In this document: one piece after another, positions 1 through 6,641 of the stretch
How the letters are laid out: each line of letters begins with the position of its first letter
Numbering within the stretch: the first letter of the stretch is position 1
Assembly: GCA_001803565.1 (NCBI GenBank)
Contig: MHDQ01000238.1
Span: forward strand, 1-6,666
DNA: 6,666 nucleotides
Direction of reading: 5' to 3'
DNA from: Nitrospinae bacterium RIFCSPLOWO2_12_FULL_45_22
GTDB taxonomy: Bacteria; 2-12-FULL-45-22
Program-made: the position numbers and the translations under genes
The notes under the pieces: model-generated
Database searches by the model: none
What the model saw: the letters and a program-made list of their open reading frames with translations, nothing else
What the model was told of the DNA's origin: nothing

Positions 1-26
1 CTTCTCTTGAAGGGTGGTTCAGTCAT
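1..26 (-). CDS. Possible 5' end of a divergent integron integrase gene (partial, runs off the window)
   Basis: On the minus strand an ATG at 26-24 opens a frame that reads MTEPPFKR and then leaves the window. Eight codons cannot identify a protein. The assignment rests on position: in integrons intI lies next to attI and is transcribed away from the cassettes, and here the frame starts about 90 bp from an attI-like core at 116-122 and diverges from the cassette promoter. No clear Shine-Dalgarno is visible, only GAAAA just before the ATG and AGAGA further upstream. The sequence left of position 1 would settle it; until then this is inference from layout. Confidence 0.35.
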
Positions 27-53: not shown

Positions 54-82
54 TTGATATCAGGCTTATTCCAATATATACT
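54..82 (+). promoter_or_regulatory. Cassette promoter (Pc-like), sigma-70/sigma-A type
   Basis: The -35 box is TTGATA at 54-59 and the -10 box is TATACT at 77-82, with an ideal 17-bp spacer. Each hexamer has five of six consensus bases. Transcription would start near 88-90, leaving a leader of about 50 nt before the TTG start at 142. It lies between the possible intI start and the attI core, which is where the common cassette promoter is found in many integrons. No other good promoter is visible before the genes at 142, 523 and 1821, so it probably drives all three. Confidence 0.6.
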
Positions 83-100
83 CCAGCTAAAAATAGAATA

Positions 101-122
101 AGTTTAAAAGTAAATGTTAGAG
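101..122 (+). other. attI-like integron recombination site (cassette boundary)
   Basis: GTTAGAG at 116-122 fits the core-site consensus GTTRRRY except at the last base; strand exchange would fall between G116 and T117. The AT-rich flank TTAAAAGTAAATGTTAG resembles the layout of the attI1 L/R pair as I recall it. There is no long inverted repeat around it, as expected for attI and unlike attC. Cassette 1 would run from 117 to 499, about 383 bp. Its circular form would restore GTTAGAG opposite CCCTAAC (451-457), which pair over CTAAC/GTTAG. Confidence 0.6.
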
Positions 123-127
123 GTTAC

Positions 128-135
128 GAAAGGAG
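128..135 (+). promoter_or_regulatory. Ribosome binding site deciding the TTG start at 142
   Basis: GAAAGGAG lies six bases before the TTG at 142. It is a near-perfect Shine-Dalgarno at good spacing, and the frame offers no ATG in a comparable place, so the TTG is accepted as the start. It lies just inside the cassette, 11 bp after the recombination point. Confidence 0.7.
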
Positions 136-141
136 CATATT

Positions 142-456
142 TTGCGCGCAGTAGAAAATTGCAATTCCATTGAGGAAGTCCGTTTCAACATTGATCGGAT
201 TGACCGTCAAATTGTCGCCCTTCTGGCTGAGCGGGGTGGCTACGTGAAGCAAGCAGCTCGGTTCAAGAAGACCACCGATGACGTGAAAGCCCCCCAACGT
301 GTCGAGCAAGTCATTTCCAAGGTAACGGCTCTATCTCAAGAGTTGGGCGCAAATCCATCTGTCACGGAGCAGGTCTACCGGGCAATGATTTCCGGTTTTA
401 TTAACGCTGAGTTGGCTGAACATGCTTCGCTTAAGGGCAATGCAACCAACCCCTAA
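142..456 (+). CDS. Chorismate mutase / isochorismate-pyruvate lyase, AroQ (PchB-like) class; integron cassette gene
   Basis: This 104-residue protein has the length and all-helical pattern of single-domain AroQ enzymes, which work as intertwined dimers. Chorismate mutase makes prephenate from chorismate; the PchB branch also cleaves isochorismate to salicylate and pyruvate. From memory it aligns without gaps to Pseudomonas PchB over the first helices, and the active-site residues R14, R31 and K42 coincide; IDRIDRQIVALLAER and YVKQAARFK are the tell-tale segments. The fourth key position, Gln90 in PchB, is Glu90 here (FINAE). Fungal chorismate mutase uses Glu at the equivalent site, so activity is plausible but pH dependence or substrate choice could differ. 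The start is TTG with a strong Shine-Dalgarno. The TAA stop at 454-456 lies inside the attC R'' box, as in many cassettes. There is no signal peptide, so it is cytoplasmic. Family assignment is firm; which of the two reactions it favours is not. Confidence 0.85.
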   Translation: MRAVENCNSIEEVRFNIDRIDRQIVALLAERGGYVKQAARFKKTTDDVKAPQRVEQVISKVTALSQELGANPSVTEQVYRAMISGFINAELAEHASLKGNATNP

Positions 457-505
457 CATTGCGGTCGAGAGGGACGCTCCGCGCGGCTCACCGCGGGCGT
501 TAGCC
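451..505 (+). other. attC site (59-base element) between cassettes 1 and 2
   Basis: The boxes are in the canonical order. R'' is CCCTAAC (451-457), L'' is GCGGTCGAG (461-469), L' is CTCACCGC (487-494) and R' is GTTAGCC (499-505). R''/R' pair over CTAAC/GTTAG. L''/L' pair as GCGGT with ACCGC and GAG with CTC, leaving one extra C in L'' (position 466). That is the extrahelical base that IntI uses to choose the strand, equivalent to GTT-C-AAGC versus GCTTAAC in aadA attC. The 17-nt centre (470-486) includes the small palindrome CCGCGCGG and would form the terminal structure. Cleavage would fall between G499 and T500. Confidence 0.8.
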
Positions 506-522: not shown

Positions 523-1818
523 TTGCTGAAACAACTAACGCTATTCGACAACCCTGTAGAGGGATCGCCAGACTTGAAGTTATCACGTTCTGGCACCTTT
601 GTTGACAACATGTCTTTACCTATCCATCGGTGGTTCCGCTATTCAGCAGGGTTTGCCGCGTCGTGGGTTGAGGAAGTTCTGTTAGAGTGGCGTATCCAGC
701 CAGGGCAATTCGTTCTTGATCCCTTTGCTGGTTCCGGTACTGTACCGGTCGTTTGCGATAGCATCGGCATCAACAGCATCGGAGTTGAAGCTCATCCGCT
801 GGTCGCTCGAATCTGCAAGGCGAAACTATTGTGGGAATGCGATCCCATCCAGGTCAGATCTTTTGCAGCCGAAGTGCTGAAGTACGCACAAGACCAAAAG
901 CCAAATGTTTCGTCATACCCTCAGTTGATCCAGCGAAGCTTCGACACAGAAGCGCTCGCAACCCTCGATAGTCTGAAGTCAGCATGGTCATCGCTACAAG
1001 ATTCATCACCAGAATCAGAACTTGTCTGGCTCGCCTTGACTTCAATCCTTCGCCCGACGTCAAGAGCGGGGACTGCTCAATGGCAATACATTCTACCCAA
1101 CAGGACAAAGAAGAATGTGATCCATCCGCTACTGGCCTTTCAGCAGCAAGTAGAGACTATCAAGTCAGATATTCGATGCATGCAGGCAAGGGCCAAGCGT
1201 TCACGCGCCGAGATTATCGCGGGGGATGCTCGCGCCTTTGCGAGTTCCATGCCACAAAAGGTTGACGCGGTAATCACGTCTCCTCCCTATGCTAATAATT
1301 ACGACTATGCAGACGCCCTACGGTTCGAAATGACCTTCTGGGGCGACGTTACTGGCTGGGGAGACATCCATGAGACTGTAAGGAAATACTTAATCGTATC
1401 CTCATCTCAACATTCGTCACGGGAGAGACTCAAAGCAAGCGATCTGCTTGGATCGGACGCAGTAGAACCTATTCGGAATGAACTCGCTGTCGTTATGGAC
1501 CAGCTCGCTAAGGTGCGCGAAGCTCACGGCGGAAAGAAGCCTTACCACACCATGATTGGCGCCTATTGCCGAGACATCAGCCTAGTACTTCGACAACTGA
1601 GGATTGCCTGCAAGCCCGAATCTCGAATGTGCTGGGTCATTGGTGACTCAGCTCCATACGGGGTTTATTGTCCCATCGAAAAGTGGATCGGAGAACTCGC
1701 AATGGCGGCAGGTTTCAAACAATATCACTTCGACAAACTGAGAGATCGCAACATCAAGTGGAAGAATCGCAAACATAGAGTCCCGTTGAAAGAGGGGCTT
1801 CTCTGGATCGAGGGCTGA
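523..1818 (+). CDS. Site-specific DNA methyltransferase (N4-cytosine or N6-adenine type)
   Basis: This 431-residue protein carries the two hallmarks of amino-methyltransferases. Motif I is FVLDPFAGSGT at 63-73, the S-adenosylmethionine site. Motif IV is TSPPY at 252-256, the catalytic loop; SPPY is commonest in N4-cytosine enzymes and also occurs in N6-adenine ones. Motif I precedes motif IV by about 180 residues, so the order is not that of classical beta-class enzymes, although the motif spelling is. The intervening part and the region after 270 may hold the target-recognition domain. HRWFRYSAGF (35-44) recalls the N-terminal segment common in this methylase family, and WVIGDS (371-376) looks like a late core strand. 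The stop is 2 bp from the next ATG, so the two genes are coupled and probably form a restriction-modification pair in which this enzyme protects the host. Target sequence cannot be read. It appears full length and intact. Confidence 0.88.
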   Translation: MLKQLTLFDNPVEGSPDLKLSRSGTFVDNMSLPIHRWFRYSAGFAASWVEEVLLEWRIQPGQFVLDPFAGSGTVPVVCDSIGINSIGVEAHPLVARICKAKLLWECDPIQVRSFAAEVLKYAQDQKPNVSSYPQLIQRSFDTEALATLDSLKSAWSSLQDSSPESELVWLALTSILRPTSRAGTAQWQYILPNRTKKNVIHPLLAFQQQVETIKSDIRCMQARAKRSRAEIIAGDARAFASSMPQKVDAVITSPPYANNYDYADALRFEMTFWGDVTGWGDIHETVRKYLIVSSSQHSSRERLKASDLLGSDAVEPIRNELAVVMDQLAKVREAHGGKKPYHTMIGAYCRDISLVLRQLRIACKPESRMCWVIGDSAPYGVYCPIEKWIGELAMAAGFKQYHFDKLRDRNIKWKNRKHRVPLKEGLLWIEG

Positions 1819-1820
1819 AT

Positions 1821-2345
1821 ATGGCAGAATCTCCGGCGCATAGATTTGGACAGTTAATCGGCGAATTGCTTGAATCGGTTGTGCGTCCTCAGCTCGAGGA
1901 CTTCTGTCAGGATCAAGGACTTTACCTTGACCACCAGAAAAGAGAACGACCGGCACGATCAGGCAGGAAGGTTTCATGGACAGATCAGTACGGAAATGCG
2001 CATGATCTTGACTTCGTGATCGAGCGAGAAGGCACAGATCATCAGATTGGCAGGCCAGTTGCTTTTATCGAGAGCGCATGGCGAAGATACACAAAACACT
2101 CTCGAAATAAGGCTCAGGAGATCCAAGGGGCGATTTTGCCTCTTGCCGAGAAATACCGATGGAACAATCCGTTTCTTGGAACGGTACTCGCAGGTGTTTT
2201 TACCGAAGGGTCGCTGGATCAGCTACGTTCACTTGGATTCCAAGTCCTATATTTCCCATACGAGTCACTTGTTGCGGCGTTTCAATCAGAAGGAATCGAC
2301 ATCGCATTTGACGACCCTCTGTGCCCTCTGCGTGCTCTGCGGTGA
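1821..2345 (+). CDS. Putative type II restriction endonuclease, PD-(D/E)XK-like, C-terminus probably lost or altered
   Basis: The 174-residue frame starts at an ATG with GAGGG six bases upstream, 2 bp after the methyltransferase. Its role is inferred mainly from that pairing. DLDFVIE (62-68) followed by AFIESAW (81-87) is the acidic-strand arrangement of a PD-(D/E)XK core, with D64 and E84 as likely metal ligands. The classical E-x-K lysine is not in place; K92 or K97 in the basic stretch RRYTKHSRNK (88-97) could replace it. LGTVLAGVF (119-127) and GFQVLYFPYE (139-148) look like further core strands. The last residues, CPLRALR, are encoded by the CTCTG-rich repeat at 2315-2344 and have no protein-like character, so the natural end was probably replaced where the array broke. 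Whether the remaining protein cuts DNA is uncertain. If it does not, the methyltransferase is an orphan. I do not recognise a named enzyme. Confidence 0.6.
   Translation: MAESPAHRFGQLIGELLESVVRPQLEDFCQDQGLYLDHQKRERPARSGRKVSWTDQYGNAHDLDFVIEREGTDHQIGRPVAFIESAWRRYTKHSRNKAQEIQGAILPLAEKYRWNNPFLGTVLAGVFTEGSLDQLRSLGFQVLYFPYESLVAAFQSEGIDIAFDDPLCPLRALR
2315..2344 (+). repeat. Degenerate CCTCTGTG/CTCTGCGGTG-type tandem repeat at the array end
   Basis: Three imperfect units follow each other: CCCTCTGTG (2315-2323), CCCTCTGCGTG (2324-2334) and CTCTGCGGTG (2335-2344). I recall similar strings, reading CACAGAGGACACAGAGG on the other strand, as dispersed intergenic repeats in many environmental bacteria; that is memory, not a search. 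Here the repeat supplies the last codons and the TGA of the nuclease frame, which suggests a recombination scar rather than coding sequence. Confidence 0.55.
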
Positions 2346-2378: not shown

Positions 2379-2399
2379 CGGTTTCTGTATAATGGAATT
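2369..2399 (-). terminator. Weak intrinsic terminator of the minus-strand operon
   Basis: Reading the minus strand, AATTCC (2399-2394) and GGAATT (2379-2374) can form a 6-bp stem with a 14-nt loop. Five more T residues (2373-2369) follow at once. The stem overlaps the last bases of the ATPase stop codon. The loop is long and the stem short, so efficiency is doubtful, but position and T-tract fit the end of the operon. Confidence 0.4.
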
Positions 2400-4107
2400 A
2401 ACTGGTTACCTTGAGGGAGCGCATACGGTTTATGGCCCCGGCTAGCTCATAGATACGGGGTAAGACAAGATTGCCGGCTTTATAGGGCAAGATAATATCG
2501 AGGGTCTCCCTTTCTATTTGCGCAAACATCTTTTTTAAGCCAGTATAAAGGTCAGGGGTCGAATCCAAGAAGTTTTGGCTATAGTAATAGATCATCTCAC
2601 CGATAGCCCGCGTCTGGCTGGTATCAACTAACTGTTCCAGGCAGCTCAGGTCCAGGCTCTGTTGGCCAAATAGGATGGTCAGCAGCCCTTTGGTATATAT
2701 CTTTACTTCCCTCTTACCCCGGCTGGCAACAAAGCTGCTGGGCAAGGGTTTCCGGGGCCTGATCGTACCAAAGCTCGCACTACCTTCTCTTGCACGACTA
2801 GCGGGGTATTCGTTCAGGAGTGCCTTTACCTGGCTAGTAACGTCTCGGGGAAGAAATTGCTCCATCATAATAACCCTGCTGGCTACCTCGAAATAGTCAC
2901 CAGAACCGCCCATGACCAGGATAGTAGAAACACCTGATTCTTTATAGAGCTGCTCTACCTTATCCAGGAAGGGCGTGATAGGTTCTTTGTCTTTACTCAC
3001 TATGCGCTGCATCCGGACATCGCGGATCATGAAGTTGGTAGCCGAAGTATCTTCGTCAATCAGCAGGAGCCGGCAACCTACTTCTAGGGCCTCCATAATA
3101 TTAGCCGCTTGCGAGGTGCTACCACTGGCATTCTCAGTGGAAAACCTGACAGTATCCTTACCTAGAGGCAGGTTATTGATGAAGGGGCTAATATCTACTT
3201 TTTCGACGTAGCGGCCATCTTCTGCCCTGATCTTTACCGCATCAGCCCTAGTAGTTACATACTCCCGGCCATCACCCGGTATATGGTTGTATACACTACG
3301 CTCCAGGGCGGTAAGGAGGGTAGATTTACCATGAAACCCACCGCCTATAATCAGGGTTATCCCTTCCGGCAGCCCCATACCCCGGATAGTCCCTCTATTC
3401 GGGGCTACCAGCCCTATCTCTAGCTCAGGTGGTGATTGAAATTCTATAACCCCCTTATCTAAGGGGCGATCATCTACCCCGCTCCTGCGGGGCAGTATAG
3501 AACCGTTAGCGATAAATGCTACCAGGTGACTCTCTTTTAGCTGCTGCCTAAGACTCCCTTGATCCTCTACTACCTGGATATGCCTATGGAGCTGCTCACT
3601 GTCGAGGTTTTTATAGATTAATGCCCGGCGGATAATGGCCGGTAATTCCTGGAAAAATATTTCAGCGGCCTCTTTAGCCAGGACGGTTCTGCCAGCCGCA
3701 GGGAGCCCTACGACAAAGCGAGCTTCCACACCCTGGCTATTGACGAGCATGGAGGTACGGGGCAGGACCTCCTGGCCCGGGGTATCAATACTTATGAGAC
3801 CGCTAGTACCCATGCCGCGGTGACCTTTAGCTATTTCTTTGATAGCCAATGCAAAGCTACGGGTCAGAAAATCTTCTAAGGCTATCTTCCGGGCCCGGTT
3901 TTGATATAACTCTTCAGGTAAGGCTGCCACTGATTGCGGTACCCATATACGAAGGCGGGATGGAGGGGCAAAGGGATCGCCCTGGACATGATCTATGAAG
4001 ACCTGGTAGCTGCTAAAATCGTAGCGACCTTCCAGGTCTTTATATGCCTTATATCCACGGCCATCAATCCTTTGCAAGATGAAGCGCAACTGGTCATGAC
4101 TCAGCAT
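2398..4107 (-). CDS. ABC-class P-loop ATPase, COG3044 family (predicted)
   Basis: At 569 residues the protein has the usual length for this family, whose biochemical role is unknown to me. Walker A is GGGFHGKST at 255-263. The signature-like segment ASGSTSQA runs 327-334. Walker B is CRLLLIDEDTS (345-355), with D351 and E352. The spacing from Walker A to Walker B and the signature just before it are ABC-like, but there is no membrane segment, so this is a soluble ATPase and not an exporter. MGGSGDYFEVASRVIMM (399-415) follows where the switch region is expected and is well conserved in the family as I recall it. The N-terminal 240 residues and C-terminal 150 residues are family-specific. An in-frame TAG two codons upstream fixes the ATG at 4107 as the earliest start. 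Only a weak Shine-Dalgarno is visible, so translation may depend on the upstream hslO. It is the last gene of the operon. Confidence 0.87.
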   Translation of the reverse strand: MLSHDQLRFILQRIDGRGYKAYKDLEGRYDFSSYQVFIDHVQGDPFAPPSRLRIWVPQSVAALPEELYQNRARKIALEDFLTRSFALAIKEIAKGHRGMGTSGLISIDTPGQEVLPRTSMLVNSQGVEARFVVGLPAAGRTVLAKEAAEIFFQELPAIIRRALIYKNLDSEQLHRHIQVVEDQGSLRQQLKESHLVAFIANGSILPRRSGVDDRPLDKGVIEFQSPPELEIGLVAPNRGTIRGMGLPEGITLIIGGGFHGKSTLLTALERSVYNHIPGDGREYVTTRADAVKIRAEDGRYVEKVDISPFINNLPLGKDTVRFSTENASGSTSQAANIMEALEVGCRLLLIDEDTSATNFMIRDVRMQRIVSKDKEPITPFLDKVEQLYKESGVSTILVMGGSGDYFEVASRVIMMEQFLPRDVTSQVKALLNEYPASRAREGSASFGTIRPRKPLPSSFVASRGKREVKIYTKGLLTILFGQQSLDLSCLEQLVDTSQTRAIGEMIYYYSQNFLDSTPDLYTGLKKMFAQIERETLDIILPYKAGNLVLPRIYELAGAINRMRSLKVTS

Positions 4108-4188
4108 GGTCTATTCTTTGATCCGCTTCCCATGTTCTTCGATAAGCAAGACCCAGCTCCCCCATGTTTGTTCCCACTCTTTGATTCC
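4108..4188 (-). other. In-frame linker: 25 coding-like codons between the hslO TAG and a second TAG
   Basis: After the hslO stop TAG (4191-4189) the same frame runs for 25 sense codons. It reads GIKEWEQTWG, then SWVLLIEEHGKRIKE, then TAG (4113-4111), ACC and the ATG of the ATPase. The gap is exactly 28 codons counting from the hslO stop to the ATPase start. The peptide is charged, amphipathic and protein-like. It has no ATG; a TTG at its fourteenth codon could start only a 12-residue peptide. It could be a degraded small gene, a lost C-terminal tail of Hsp33, a readthrough extension, or chance. No terminator or promoter is seen here. Confidence 0.35.
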
Positions 4189-5106
4189 CTAATTGCCATT
4201 GGTACTGACCACCGCCTTTTTTCGCCTTATTATAGCCGTTAAGACCTTTTCCAGGTCTTTTGCGGAGAAGGTATACACCTTGCTGCAAAAATTACAACTT
4301 ATGGGCGTTTTCAATCGCTTTTCCACCATTTCCCTAATCTCTTCTTCACCCAGGGCATACAATGTGCCCTCTACCTTTTTCCGGGAACAGCGGCAGCGGA
4401 AGCGGACCTCCTTTTTTGTCATAAAAGTAATACCGTATTCCCCTACTGCCAGGTCCAATAACCTTTCCGGGCCATAACCTTCCATGATTAATTGGCTGCA
4501 ATATGGGAGTTCCAGGAGCCTATTTTCGATATGAGCAAGGGCTTCTTCTTTCGCACCTGGTAGGGCCTGGATAAAGATACCACCAGAGGCCTTTACCGAG
4601 TTATCACTCTCTACATATATCCCCAGGGCCATCGCCGAAGGTATCTGTTCCGAGACCGTCAGGTAATAGGCTAAGTCTTTTCCTAACTCACCACTTATTA
4701 AAGGTACCGCACCACAATACGGCTCTTTCAGACCCAAATCTTTATAAACATAGAGAAAGCCCTTTTGACCAACGGCCAGGCCAACGTCTAATTTGCCATC
4801 TTTGCTAGGCAGGTGGATACGGGGCCGTTGGACGTAACCCCGAACATTTCCCTGGGCATCGGCCTCTACTACGACCTCTTTTAAGGGACCATCACCCATA
4901 ATTTGTAGAGTTACCCTTTGCTGGCTGTTATATTTAAGGAGGCTACTTAGCAGTATGGCCCCACTCAGGGCTTTCCCTAAAGCTGCGGTAGCTACGGGAT
5001 AAGTCTGGTGCCGGGTGCGGGCCTCTTCTACCAGCCCGGTATCTACCACGGCAACACAGCGGATACTAGCCTCTTTGATAATGCCAGAAACCAGGTAATC
5101 GGACAT
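4189..5106 (-). CDS. hslO: Hsp33 redox-regulated holdase chaperone
   Basis: This 305-residue cytoplasmic protein matches Hsp33 throughout. The N-terminal chaperone fold runs from about 1 to 230. The C-terminal zinc switch has its four cysteines in the canonical CxC...CxxC pattern: C238 and C240 in FRCRCS, and C271 and C274 in SCNFC. In the reduced state these bind zinc and keep the protein off; oxidative stress with heat releases the zinc, and Hsp33 then dimerises and holds unfolding proteins. All four ligands and the linker between them are present, so redox control should be intact. The ATG overlaps the previous gene's TGA as TGATG, with AGGGA nine bases before it, so translation is coupled to the TIM-like gene. 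It ends with TAG. Confidence 0.96.
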   Translation of the reverse strand: MSDYLVSGIIKEASIRCVAVVDTGLVEEARTRHQTYPVATAALGKALSGAILLSSLLKYNSQQRVTLQIMGDGPLKEVVVEADAQGNVRGYVQRPRIHLPSKDGKLDVGLAVGQKGFLYVYKDLGLKEPYCGAVPLISGELGKDLAYYLTVSEQIPSAMALGIYVESDNSVKASGGIFIQALPGAKEEALAHIENRLLELPYCSQLIMEGYGPERLLDLAVGEYGITFMTKKEVRFRCRCSRKKVEGTLYALGEEEIREMVEKRLKTPISCNFCSKVYTFSAKDLEKVLTAIIRRKKAVVSTNGN

Positions 5107-6575
5107 CAGGCAATTTCCCTGGAGCGTCTTCCTCGACCAGTGATTTCCAGGACTTTCCGCATAAAAGAAAAAACGCCCGTCCCTTTACCGTACATGTATA
5201 ATTCTTTCACCGGCTCATCTATTAACCTGGGGATAGAAGAAGGGACAAGGTCTTGATAGTTTCCGCTTCTCACCTTTGCCCGAATCCGGGCCTGGTAATA
5301 TGCCGGTCGCATCAGTAGTTTCATTAATTTTTGACTATCCTGCTCCGAGACCCGCACTTTTAAGCCATAACAGTCTTCTCCTATGAGGAATATCTTATCA
5401 TAGACCTCTTTTTCTTCTAGTGGGCGCTGGATATTATTATACTCAGAGATCTCTTTTAGGTAGCGCTCTACGGCCTCTTGCCAGCTTATGGATTCTTGCC
5501 AATTTATGGATTCTTGCCAGAGCTTTTCGCGAAACGGTGTAGCGAAGGCACTGGCTGCCAGGCTACCCACTGCCCCACAATCCCTAATCGCGATAATAAT
5601 ATCCTGGACCGTTTCTACACCTGCCCCGCAGTATACTGGTAGCGCAGGATTAATCCTTTTAACTGCAGCTCCGGTTTGTTTAATTATTTCAGGCTTTTGC
5701 TGTACGATAGAAATTCCCTTGCCAATAAACTCATCCCACTCTACGGCAATAGCTATAGTCTTATAAACATGGTTTATTACGACATGGTAAAAGTGTTCCT
5801 TTAACTTATCCCCTAGAATGTTGGAGATAGATTCTTTTAGCAGGGTCTGATACTTGGTGAAAGGAACCTTAAATTGTTCATAGGCCATCCGGCAATCTTC
5901 CTTTTCCAGCAGTCCAAAAAAGATCTCCTTAAAATCACCCTGCTTAAAAGACCCCTTGGACAATCCTTCTGGGAATCTACCAAAGAGTCTTTCCAATTCT
6001 ATATAGGATTTAACAGTCAATTTATCCAGGAGCTTCTGCCCAAAATCTTTATATACCTGATCCCTAAATTCCTGGCTGGTGAGCATTTTGGCTATTTCTG
6101 AGGCCGTTTCTGGGCCATCGGCACATATGACCAGATTAAGCCCAGCATCTAAGCCGGCCAGGATCGCGTCCCTTAAGAAGCGAAAGTCTTCTGGCTTATT
6201 ATTGACTTCCCCGGTCTCCTTTTGCCGTTTTCCCGGATTATGCCCATATATCCGGTCTTCGTAGTGATTTATCAAAGTACCGTGGGCACCCAGATTAGCT
6301 AATGCCCGGGGGGTAGTAGAACCGGTCCAGCTCGCCCCTGGGGCTACCGGGTCTATGGATTGGCCAAAGACGTGGAAATAATCAAAAAGCGCGGGGTCCT
6401 TACGTGCCAGACTATCTACTGCCTCGTGGATCTCTGCGTTATTTACGCAAACAATAAGGGGATGGCGGTAGACCTTAGCTAGTTCTGCCGCCGTGACTAC
6501 ATACTTACCGATCCTTTCACCGGTAACGATCTGTTTCAAGTTTATTATTAATTCTGGCCAATGTTGGTATGGCAT
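5106..6575 (-). CDS. Divergent triosephosphate-isomerase-like TIM-barrel protein with insertion and C-terminal extension
   Basis: From the ATG at 6575 the protein has 489 residues, about twice the length of triosephosphate isomerase. The TIM landmarks appear in order: INLKQ (N12-x-K14, as in NWKMN); a long loop-strand SIDPVAPGASWTGSTTP leading to LGAHGTLINHYEDR with H104 (as in LGHSERR); NLVICADGPE (147-156); VEWDEFIGKG with E279 (as in AYEPVWAIGTG); CGAGVET (316-322); and AVGSLAASAF (335-344). The catalytic Lys, His and Glu are all retained, and the spelling is nearest archaeal-type TIM. About 105 mostly charged residues (163-268) are inserted between strands 5 and 6. About 140 residues follow strand 8, ending in a basic tail (GRGRRSREIA). 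It may be an isomerase on a related substrate or a non-glycolytic paralogue; the substrate is unknown. A longer frame begins at 6596 but lacks a ribosome site. It is the first gene of the operon with hslO and the ATPase. Confidence 0.72.
   Translation of the reverse strand: MPYQHWPELIINLKQIVTGERIGKYVVTAAELAKVYRHPLIVCVNNAEIHEAVDSLARKDPALFDYFHVFGQSIDPVAPGASWTGSTTPRALANLGAHGTLINHYEDRIYGHNPGKRQKETGEVNNKPEDFRFLRDAILAGLDAGLNLVICADGPETASEIAKMLTSQEFRDQVYKDFGQKLLDKLTVKSYIELERLFGRFPEGLSKGSFKQGDFKEIFFGLLEKEDCRMAYEQFKVPFTKYQTLLKESISNILGDKLKEHFYHVVINHVYKTIAIAVEWDEFIGKGISIVQQKPEIIKQTGAAVKRINPALPVYCGAGVETVQDIIIAIRDCGAVGSLAASAFATPFREKLWQESINWQESISWQEAVERYLKEISEYNNIQRPLEEKEVYDKIFLIGEDCYGLKVRVSEQDSQKLMKLLMRPAYYQARIRAKVRSGNYQDLVPSSIPRLIDEPVKELYMYGKGTGVFSFMRKVLEITGRGRRSREIA
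5476..5520 (-). repeat. 18-bp in-frame tandem repeat inside the TIM-like gene
   Basis: Two 18-bp copies (5476-5493 and 5494-5511) differ at only two bases; a third copy is partial (nine identical bases, 5512-5520). In the protein they give WQESIN, WQESIS and WQEAVE, a six-residue period just after the last barrel strand. The near identity points to recent slippage. The frame is kept, so copy number could vary between strains without breaking the gene. Confidence 0.8.
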
Positions 6576-6579
6576 CTTA

Positions 6580-6590
6580 GCTCCCCCCTT
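6580..6590 (-). promoter_or_regulatory. Ribosome binding site deciding the start of the TIM-like gene
   Basis: On the minus strand AAGGGGGGAG ends five to six bases before the ATG at 6575. The upstream ATG at 6596 is preceded by CCTTTCCTAGCA, which is pyrimidine-rich and has no Shine-Dalgarno. The seven extra residues (MKKGGAK) would simply be the ribosome site translated. The start at 6575 is therefore preferred. Confidence 0.75.
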
Positions 6591-6641
6591 TTTCATTGCT
6601 AGGAAAGGATTGACTTTTTAACTTATTTTGCTTTATTTTCT

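Follow-up and report, generated by a model that had tools for sequence, protein, structure and literature searches.

A probable chromosomal integron end with a chorismate mutase cassette and a leader in three copies, from an under-sampled bacterial lineage

Introduction

Earlier surveys have catalogued integrons in fourteen phyla, including the Firmicutes, in which they are rare yet already on record (PMC8618304; PMC9024848). The systems closest to the locus described here are the sedentary chromosomal integrons of Proteobacteria and of other lineages represented by MAGs (L044-L123), with which it has in common an attI leader, a gene stop within R'' and the structure of attC. It differs from them in having no visible intI, in belonging to a sparsely sampled host phylum, and in a leader that occurs in three copies, at least one of which lies away from intI. 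An attC without a visible intI is also the mark of CALIN elements, clusters of attC without integrase (PMC9024848, PMC8618304), which in IntegronFinder 2 contain by default at least two attC (PMC9024848). This class was considered and set aside: C238 has a single attC, short of the two required, and an attI-like leader is present. The integron of Limnochorda pilosa, a member of the Firmicutes (PMC9024848), likewise lies outside the usual groups, while the host studied here is placed in another and, in the comparison collection, much smaller phylum. In archaea, an assembled genome with many attC spread over its contigs has been described (PMC9668308).

The window, meaning the whole stretch of DNA analysed, consists of all 6,666 bases of one contig (C238), position 1 being the contig end. 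The source assembly, from an uncultured bacterium, comprises 3.67 Mb in 321 contigs and is 85% complete and 1.3% contaminated. The left 2.3 kb of the contig is read here as the attI-proximal end of a chromosomal integron, with a probability of about 0.8. Its plus strand encodes a chorismate mutase of 104 amino acids, a type II DNA methyltransferase and a short restriction enzyme. The features are as follows.

1-26, minus strand: first codons of a divergent open frame (MTEPPFKR, from translation), cut by the contig end
27-122, plus strand: AT-rich leader with attI core; copies on C107 (94%) and C28 (83%), similarity ending at 122 and 121
54-82, plus strand: putative cassette promoter Pc, TTGATA-17-TATACT, from the hexamer pattern and promoter-like hexamers in the other leader copies
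116-122, plus strand: attI core GTTAGAG with a probable crossover after G116, where the homology of the three leaders stops
117-499, plus strand: complete gene cassette, 383 bp in its integrated form, as deduced from the core at 116-122 and R' at 499-505
142-456, plus strand: AroQ-class chorismate mutase gene, PchB-like, 104 aa, TTG start (Pfam CM_2, PchB structures)
451-505, plus strand: attC recombination site (covariance model R1, 29.8 bits, E 1.1e-5)
523-1818, plus strand: type II DNA methyltransferase of a second, incomplete cassette that begins at 500 (PADLOC MTase_II, E 3e-117)
1821-2345, plus strand: gene for a type II restriction enzyme, lacking its 3' end (matches a 288-residue profile over residues 1-161)
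2305-2398, no strand: break that separates the cassette part from the host operon and contains a dispersed CTCTGCG-type repeat (end of nuclease homology, repeat matches)
2398-6596, minus strand: host operon encoding an ABC-class ATPase, Hsp33 (hslO) and a TIM-like protein; a flank outside the integron (gene annotation, composition)

Results and Discussion

The attC site and the first cassette

A preliminary description had read positions 54 to 505 as an integron platform (Pc, attI, cassette and attC) next to a Firmicutes-like operon. The integron part of this reading was supported by an attC model and by the recurrence of the leader at two other places in the genome; a Firmicutes host was not supported. 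A bare attC pairing motif is weak evidence, as it was equalled in 60 of 400 shuffled windows. Since a hand-written pairing scan performed at chance level for 451-505, a covariance model (R1) was built. Its candidates were picked by pairing scan on 80 contigs that carry intI in named genomes, and the 34 sites that were aligned all come from genomes other than the source. In this alignment the R and L stems covary, with 93% of cells paired and a covariation score above that of every shuffle and every slid version. In the window R1 gave a single hit, which spans 451-505 (29.8 bits, E 1.1e-5); the next best unfiltered match there reached 9.3 bits. Across the source genome, 19 contigs carry the 31 attC that it found at E<0.01, and it gave no match in 131 kb from 12 other contigs of that genome. 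An Rfam search returned nothing at 451-505.

The site is composed of R'' (CCCTAAC, 451-457), L'' (CGGTCGAG, 462-469), L' (CTCACCG, 487-493) and R' (GTTAGCC, 499-505). The proposed pairing of R'' with R' and of L'' with L' is present in seven of seven positions of the L stem and five of seven of the R stem. The extrahelical C466 is found unpaired within L'', and the stop codon of the cassette gene (TAA, 454-456) lies inside R'', as had been described. In its left half, the site matches sequence on an intI contig (L102) of a betaproteobacterial MAG with 97% identity over 30 nt. Two points count against an integron end here, namely the imperfect R stem and the fact that this is the only attC on the contig.

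The gene of the first cassette starts with TTG and is preceded by AAAGGAG at 129-135. Its product scores 72.9 bits against Pfam CM_2 (cut-off 27) and matches PchB structures with an E-value of 2e-10. It thus has the fold family and the active-site region in common with the PchB isochorismate lyase and the AroQ chorismate mutases. It differs from the former by a score of only 75.4 bits against the equivalog cut-off of 126 for isochorismate lyase (PRK07075); that identity was rejected, while assignment to the wider CM_2 family holds. A search of a paper collection found no report of a chorismate mutase cassette.

The leader and its copies

The core GTTAGAG claimed earlier is present at 116-122, and so are the two promoter hexamers, TTGATA at 54-59 and TATACT at 77-82, with a spacing of 17 nt. 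As a pattern, promoter-like hexamer pairs occur in the window at chance level (3 sites against 2.9 +/- 1.8 in shuffles). Across the three leader copies the hexamers are TTGATA/TATACT twice and TTGACA/TACAAT once. Apart from C107 and C28, the source genome gave no meaningful score with 27-122, and a search for the leader in five G001 stretches gave no match.

Different genes stand behind the three copies: the chorismate mutase on C238, an FRG-domain gene on C107, and an IrrE-like peptidase together with a DUF4411 gene on C28. The FRG gene, too, ends within an attC (5634-5544, 18.4 bits with R1), and no attC follows the genes on C28. Because the similarity ends at the core and the genes behind it vary from copy to copy, 27-122 is assigned as a putative attI/promoter leader; integration at attI leaves such a pattern of different cassettes behind one core. 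The comparison yielded what is expected of an attI site, a leader that is conserved up to the core and followed by varied cassettes.

The surroundings of the copies are less regular. On C107 the leader lies behind the end of another gene with no adjoining intI, and on C28 it directly faces dprA, with dprA and topA as neighbouring genes and no intI. This placement beside dprA instead of intI is an unexplained feature, and the lack of intI on C238 and beside the C28 leader counts against the reading as an integron end. So does the comparison with the attI regions beside the intI genes of C243, C304 and C115, to which the leader showed no resemblance. In C107 (L039 6573-6610) and C28 (L037 4380-4417) the leader is opened by a 38-bp palindrome with the core ATAATCATAAATATTTATCATTAT; the palindrome is missing from C238, whose sequence diverges left of 27.

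The 150-bp leader might be a short repeat or a promoter element with no relation to attI, beside which cassettes were inserted ectopically. The palindrome opens the two copies that lie away from intI, and one of these, on C28, has no attC after it. Against such an element, the similarity stops at the expected insertion core in all three copies and the genes behind two of the three end inside an attC, and we regard it as quite improbable.

The second cassette, the break and the host operon

The gene of the second cassette begins with TTG at 523, 17 nt past the first attC, with the purine-rich AAAAGGAAG upstream of the start. The restriction enzyme that follows the methyltransferase has a homologue on the Paracoccus plasmid pAMI7 that is 308 residues long and likewise adjoins a methyltransferase. 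R1 found no attC in the window downstream of this restriction-modification pair. The left end of the contig carries a captured gene that is complete and another that is broken. The sequence CTCTGTGCCCTCTGCGTGCTCTGCGGTGAA at 2310-2345 resembles a repeat in C287, C136 and C2 and in the Chloroflexi locus L061, and the gene of the host ATPase ends about 50 bases beyond the break. For this right-hand break a deletion fits best.

The host operon groups by composition with other contigs of the source genome, and the cassette part does not. Such a difference, together with a nuclease that breaks off at 2305-2398, where a dispersed repeat lies, would also be seen if assembly or binning had joined a foreign integron fragment to the host operon near 2305-2398. 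A chimera of this kind is very unlikely, as a composition difference is expected of imported cassettes, many other integron loci adjoin host genes in the source genome, and a leader copy on C28 adjoins the dprA-topA genes, whose composition matches that of the host operon.

Within the operon, the 496-aa protein (5106-6596, minus strand) has a triosephosphate-isomerase-like match and overlaps the start of hslO; no homologue of it was found in the 40 other genomes searched.

The host phylum

The impression of a Firmicutes host arises from Hsp33, which among solved structures scores best against a Bacillus protein; the host is not thereby a Firmicute. In the comparison collection, whose taxonomy is followed here and splits the old Firmicutes, the host phylum consists of two genomes, both with complete intI, attC and Omp85. 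The other genomes of the collection are related to the source at the domain level only. A search for Spo0A found none in the source genome, which at 85% completeness makes the absence no proof. These findings do not support the Firmicutes assignment. Some diderm Firmicutes possess Omp85, so the host may still be related to the wider Firmicutes.

Integrase genes in the source genome

Two complete integron integrases are encoded in the source genome, on C243 and C304 (467 and 439 bits, cut-off 265). Both align over their full length to IntI4 of Vibrio cholerae, including the catalytic residues and the additional stretch specific to integron integrases. About ten further pieces of intI are damaged by splitting, internal deletion or frameshift or are interrupted by contig ends, and some of the broken genes adjoin host genes with attC on the other side, e.g. 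on C115.

The divergent ATG at 26, proposed earlier as the start of an intI just outside the contig, does exist, and its frame leaves the contig after eight codons (MTEPPFKR). It could be the start of intI, a possibility that eight codons neither support nor refute; setting them against the N-termini of about 75 IntI genes was uninformative. The first 24 bases of C238 have no other occurrence in the source genome and no overlapping contig. The end of C7 falls within an intI (residues 217-314) whose orientation is compatible with a position left of C238, and C7 is a candidate join only.

Several other observations concern the integrase loci of this genome. The intI copies on C136 (L027 12142-12656) and C317 (L029 9142-8631) have a common internal deletion, with residues ~126-268 missing, and 596 bp of their DNA is 83% identical, which suggests duplication of an already deleted integrase. 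Isolated fragments with some 25-100 residues from the C-terminal end of intI are found on C287, C95, C106, C7 and C2 (L033, L035, L036, L028 and L038); the one on C7 is cut by the contig end and the other four are internal. Repeat blocks (L037 344-2532, L025 6480-6900, L164 6468-6945 and 9291-9412) are contiguous in C304 and interrupted in C28, where they are split by about 1.3 kb of extra DNA with a transposase gene and by another 0.4 kb, and adjoin N-terminal fragments of another integrase. Toxin-antitoxin-like pairs occur in the cassette regions behind attI on C243 (L024 3541-4164), as a HigB-like protein with an HTH partner, and on C115 (L026 8836-9506), as a similar-looking pair.

With two complete IntI at other loci, the leader might also be a duplicated attI/promoter platform with no integrase of its own, so that dispersed chromosomal slots, e.g. 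the one upstream of dprA, would be filled in trans by IntI. This would account for a leader present three times in one genome, each time ahead of other genes, and for the copies beside dprA on C28 and behind a gene end on C107, neither of which adjoins intI. The left flank of the C238 copy lies beyond the contig end, the copies number only three, and broken intI genes are common in this genome, so that the simple loss of an intI accounts for these observations as well. We consider such platforms unlikely; if real, they would amount to a dispersed integron with many expression slots.

Proposed history of the locus

For an integron end, the following course is proposed. The leader at 27-122 would hold the attI site and a promoter, and an intI may once have lain beside it. 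An integron integrase would have inserted the promoterless chorismate mutase cassette at G116, by recombination between attI and the attC of the cassette (now at 451-505), folded from its bottom strand. The restriction-modification cassette behind it would then have lost its end, leaving an array cut on the left by the contig end and on the right by a deletion or rearrangement. The cassette genes would presumably be expressed from the leader promoter.

Conclusions

The locus is most likely an ordinary chromosomal integron end from an under-sampled, integron-rich lineage. As such it is a sound and largely expected case, with no new mechanism and no record for the Firmicutes. The feature that most deserves follow-up is the leader, which is repeated and has no integrase as its neighbour. 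Its three copies, in which the same core is followed by different genes, offer a natural test of the copying of attI and of whether it can be served in trans. Complete integrases and attC in both collection genomes of the phylum show that cassette exchange extends past the well-sampled groups.
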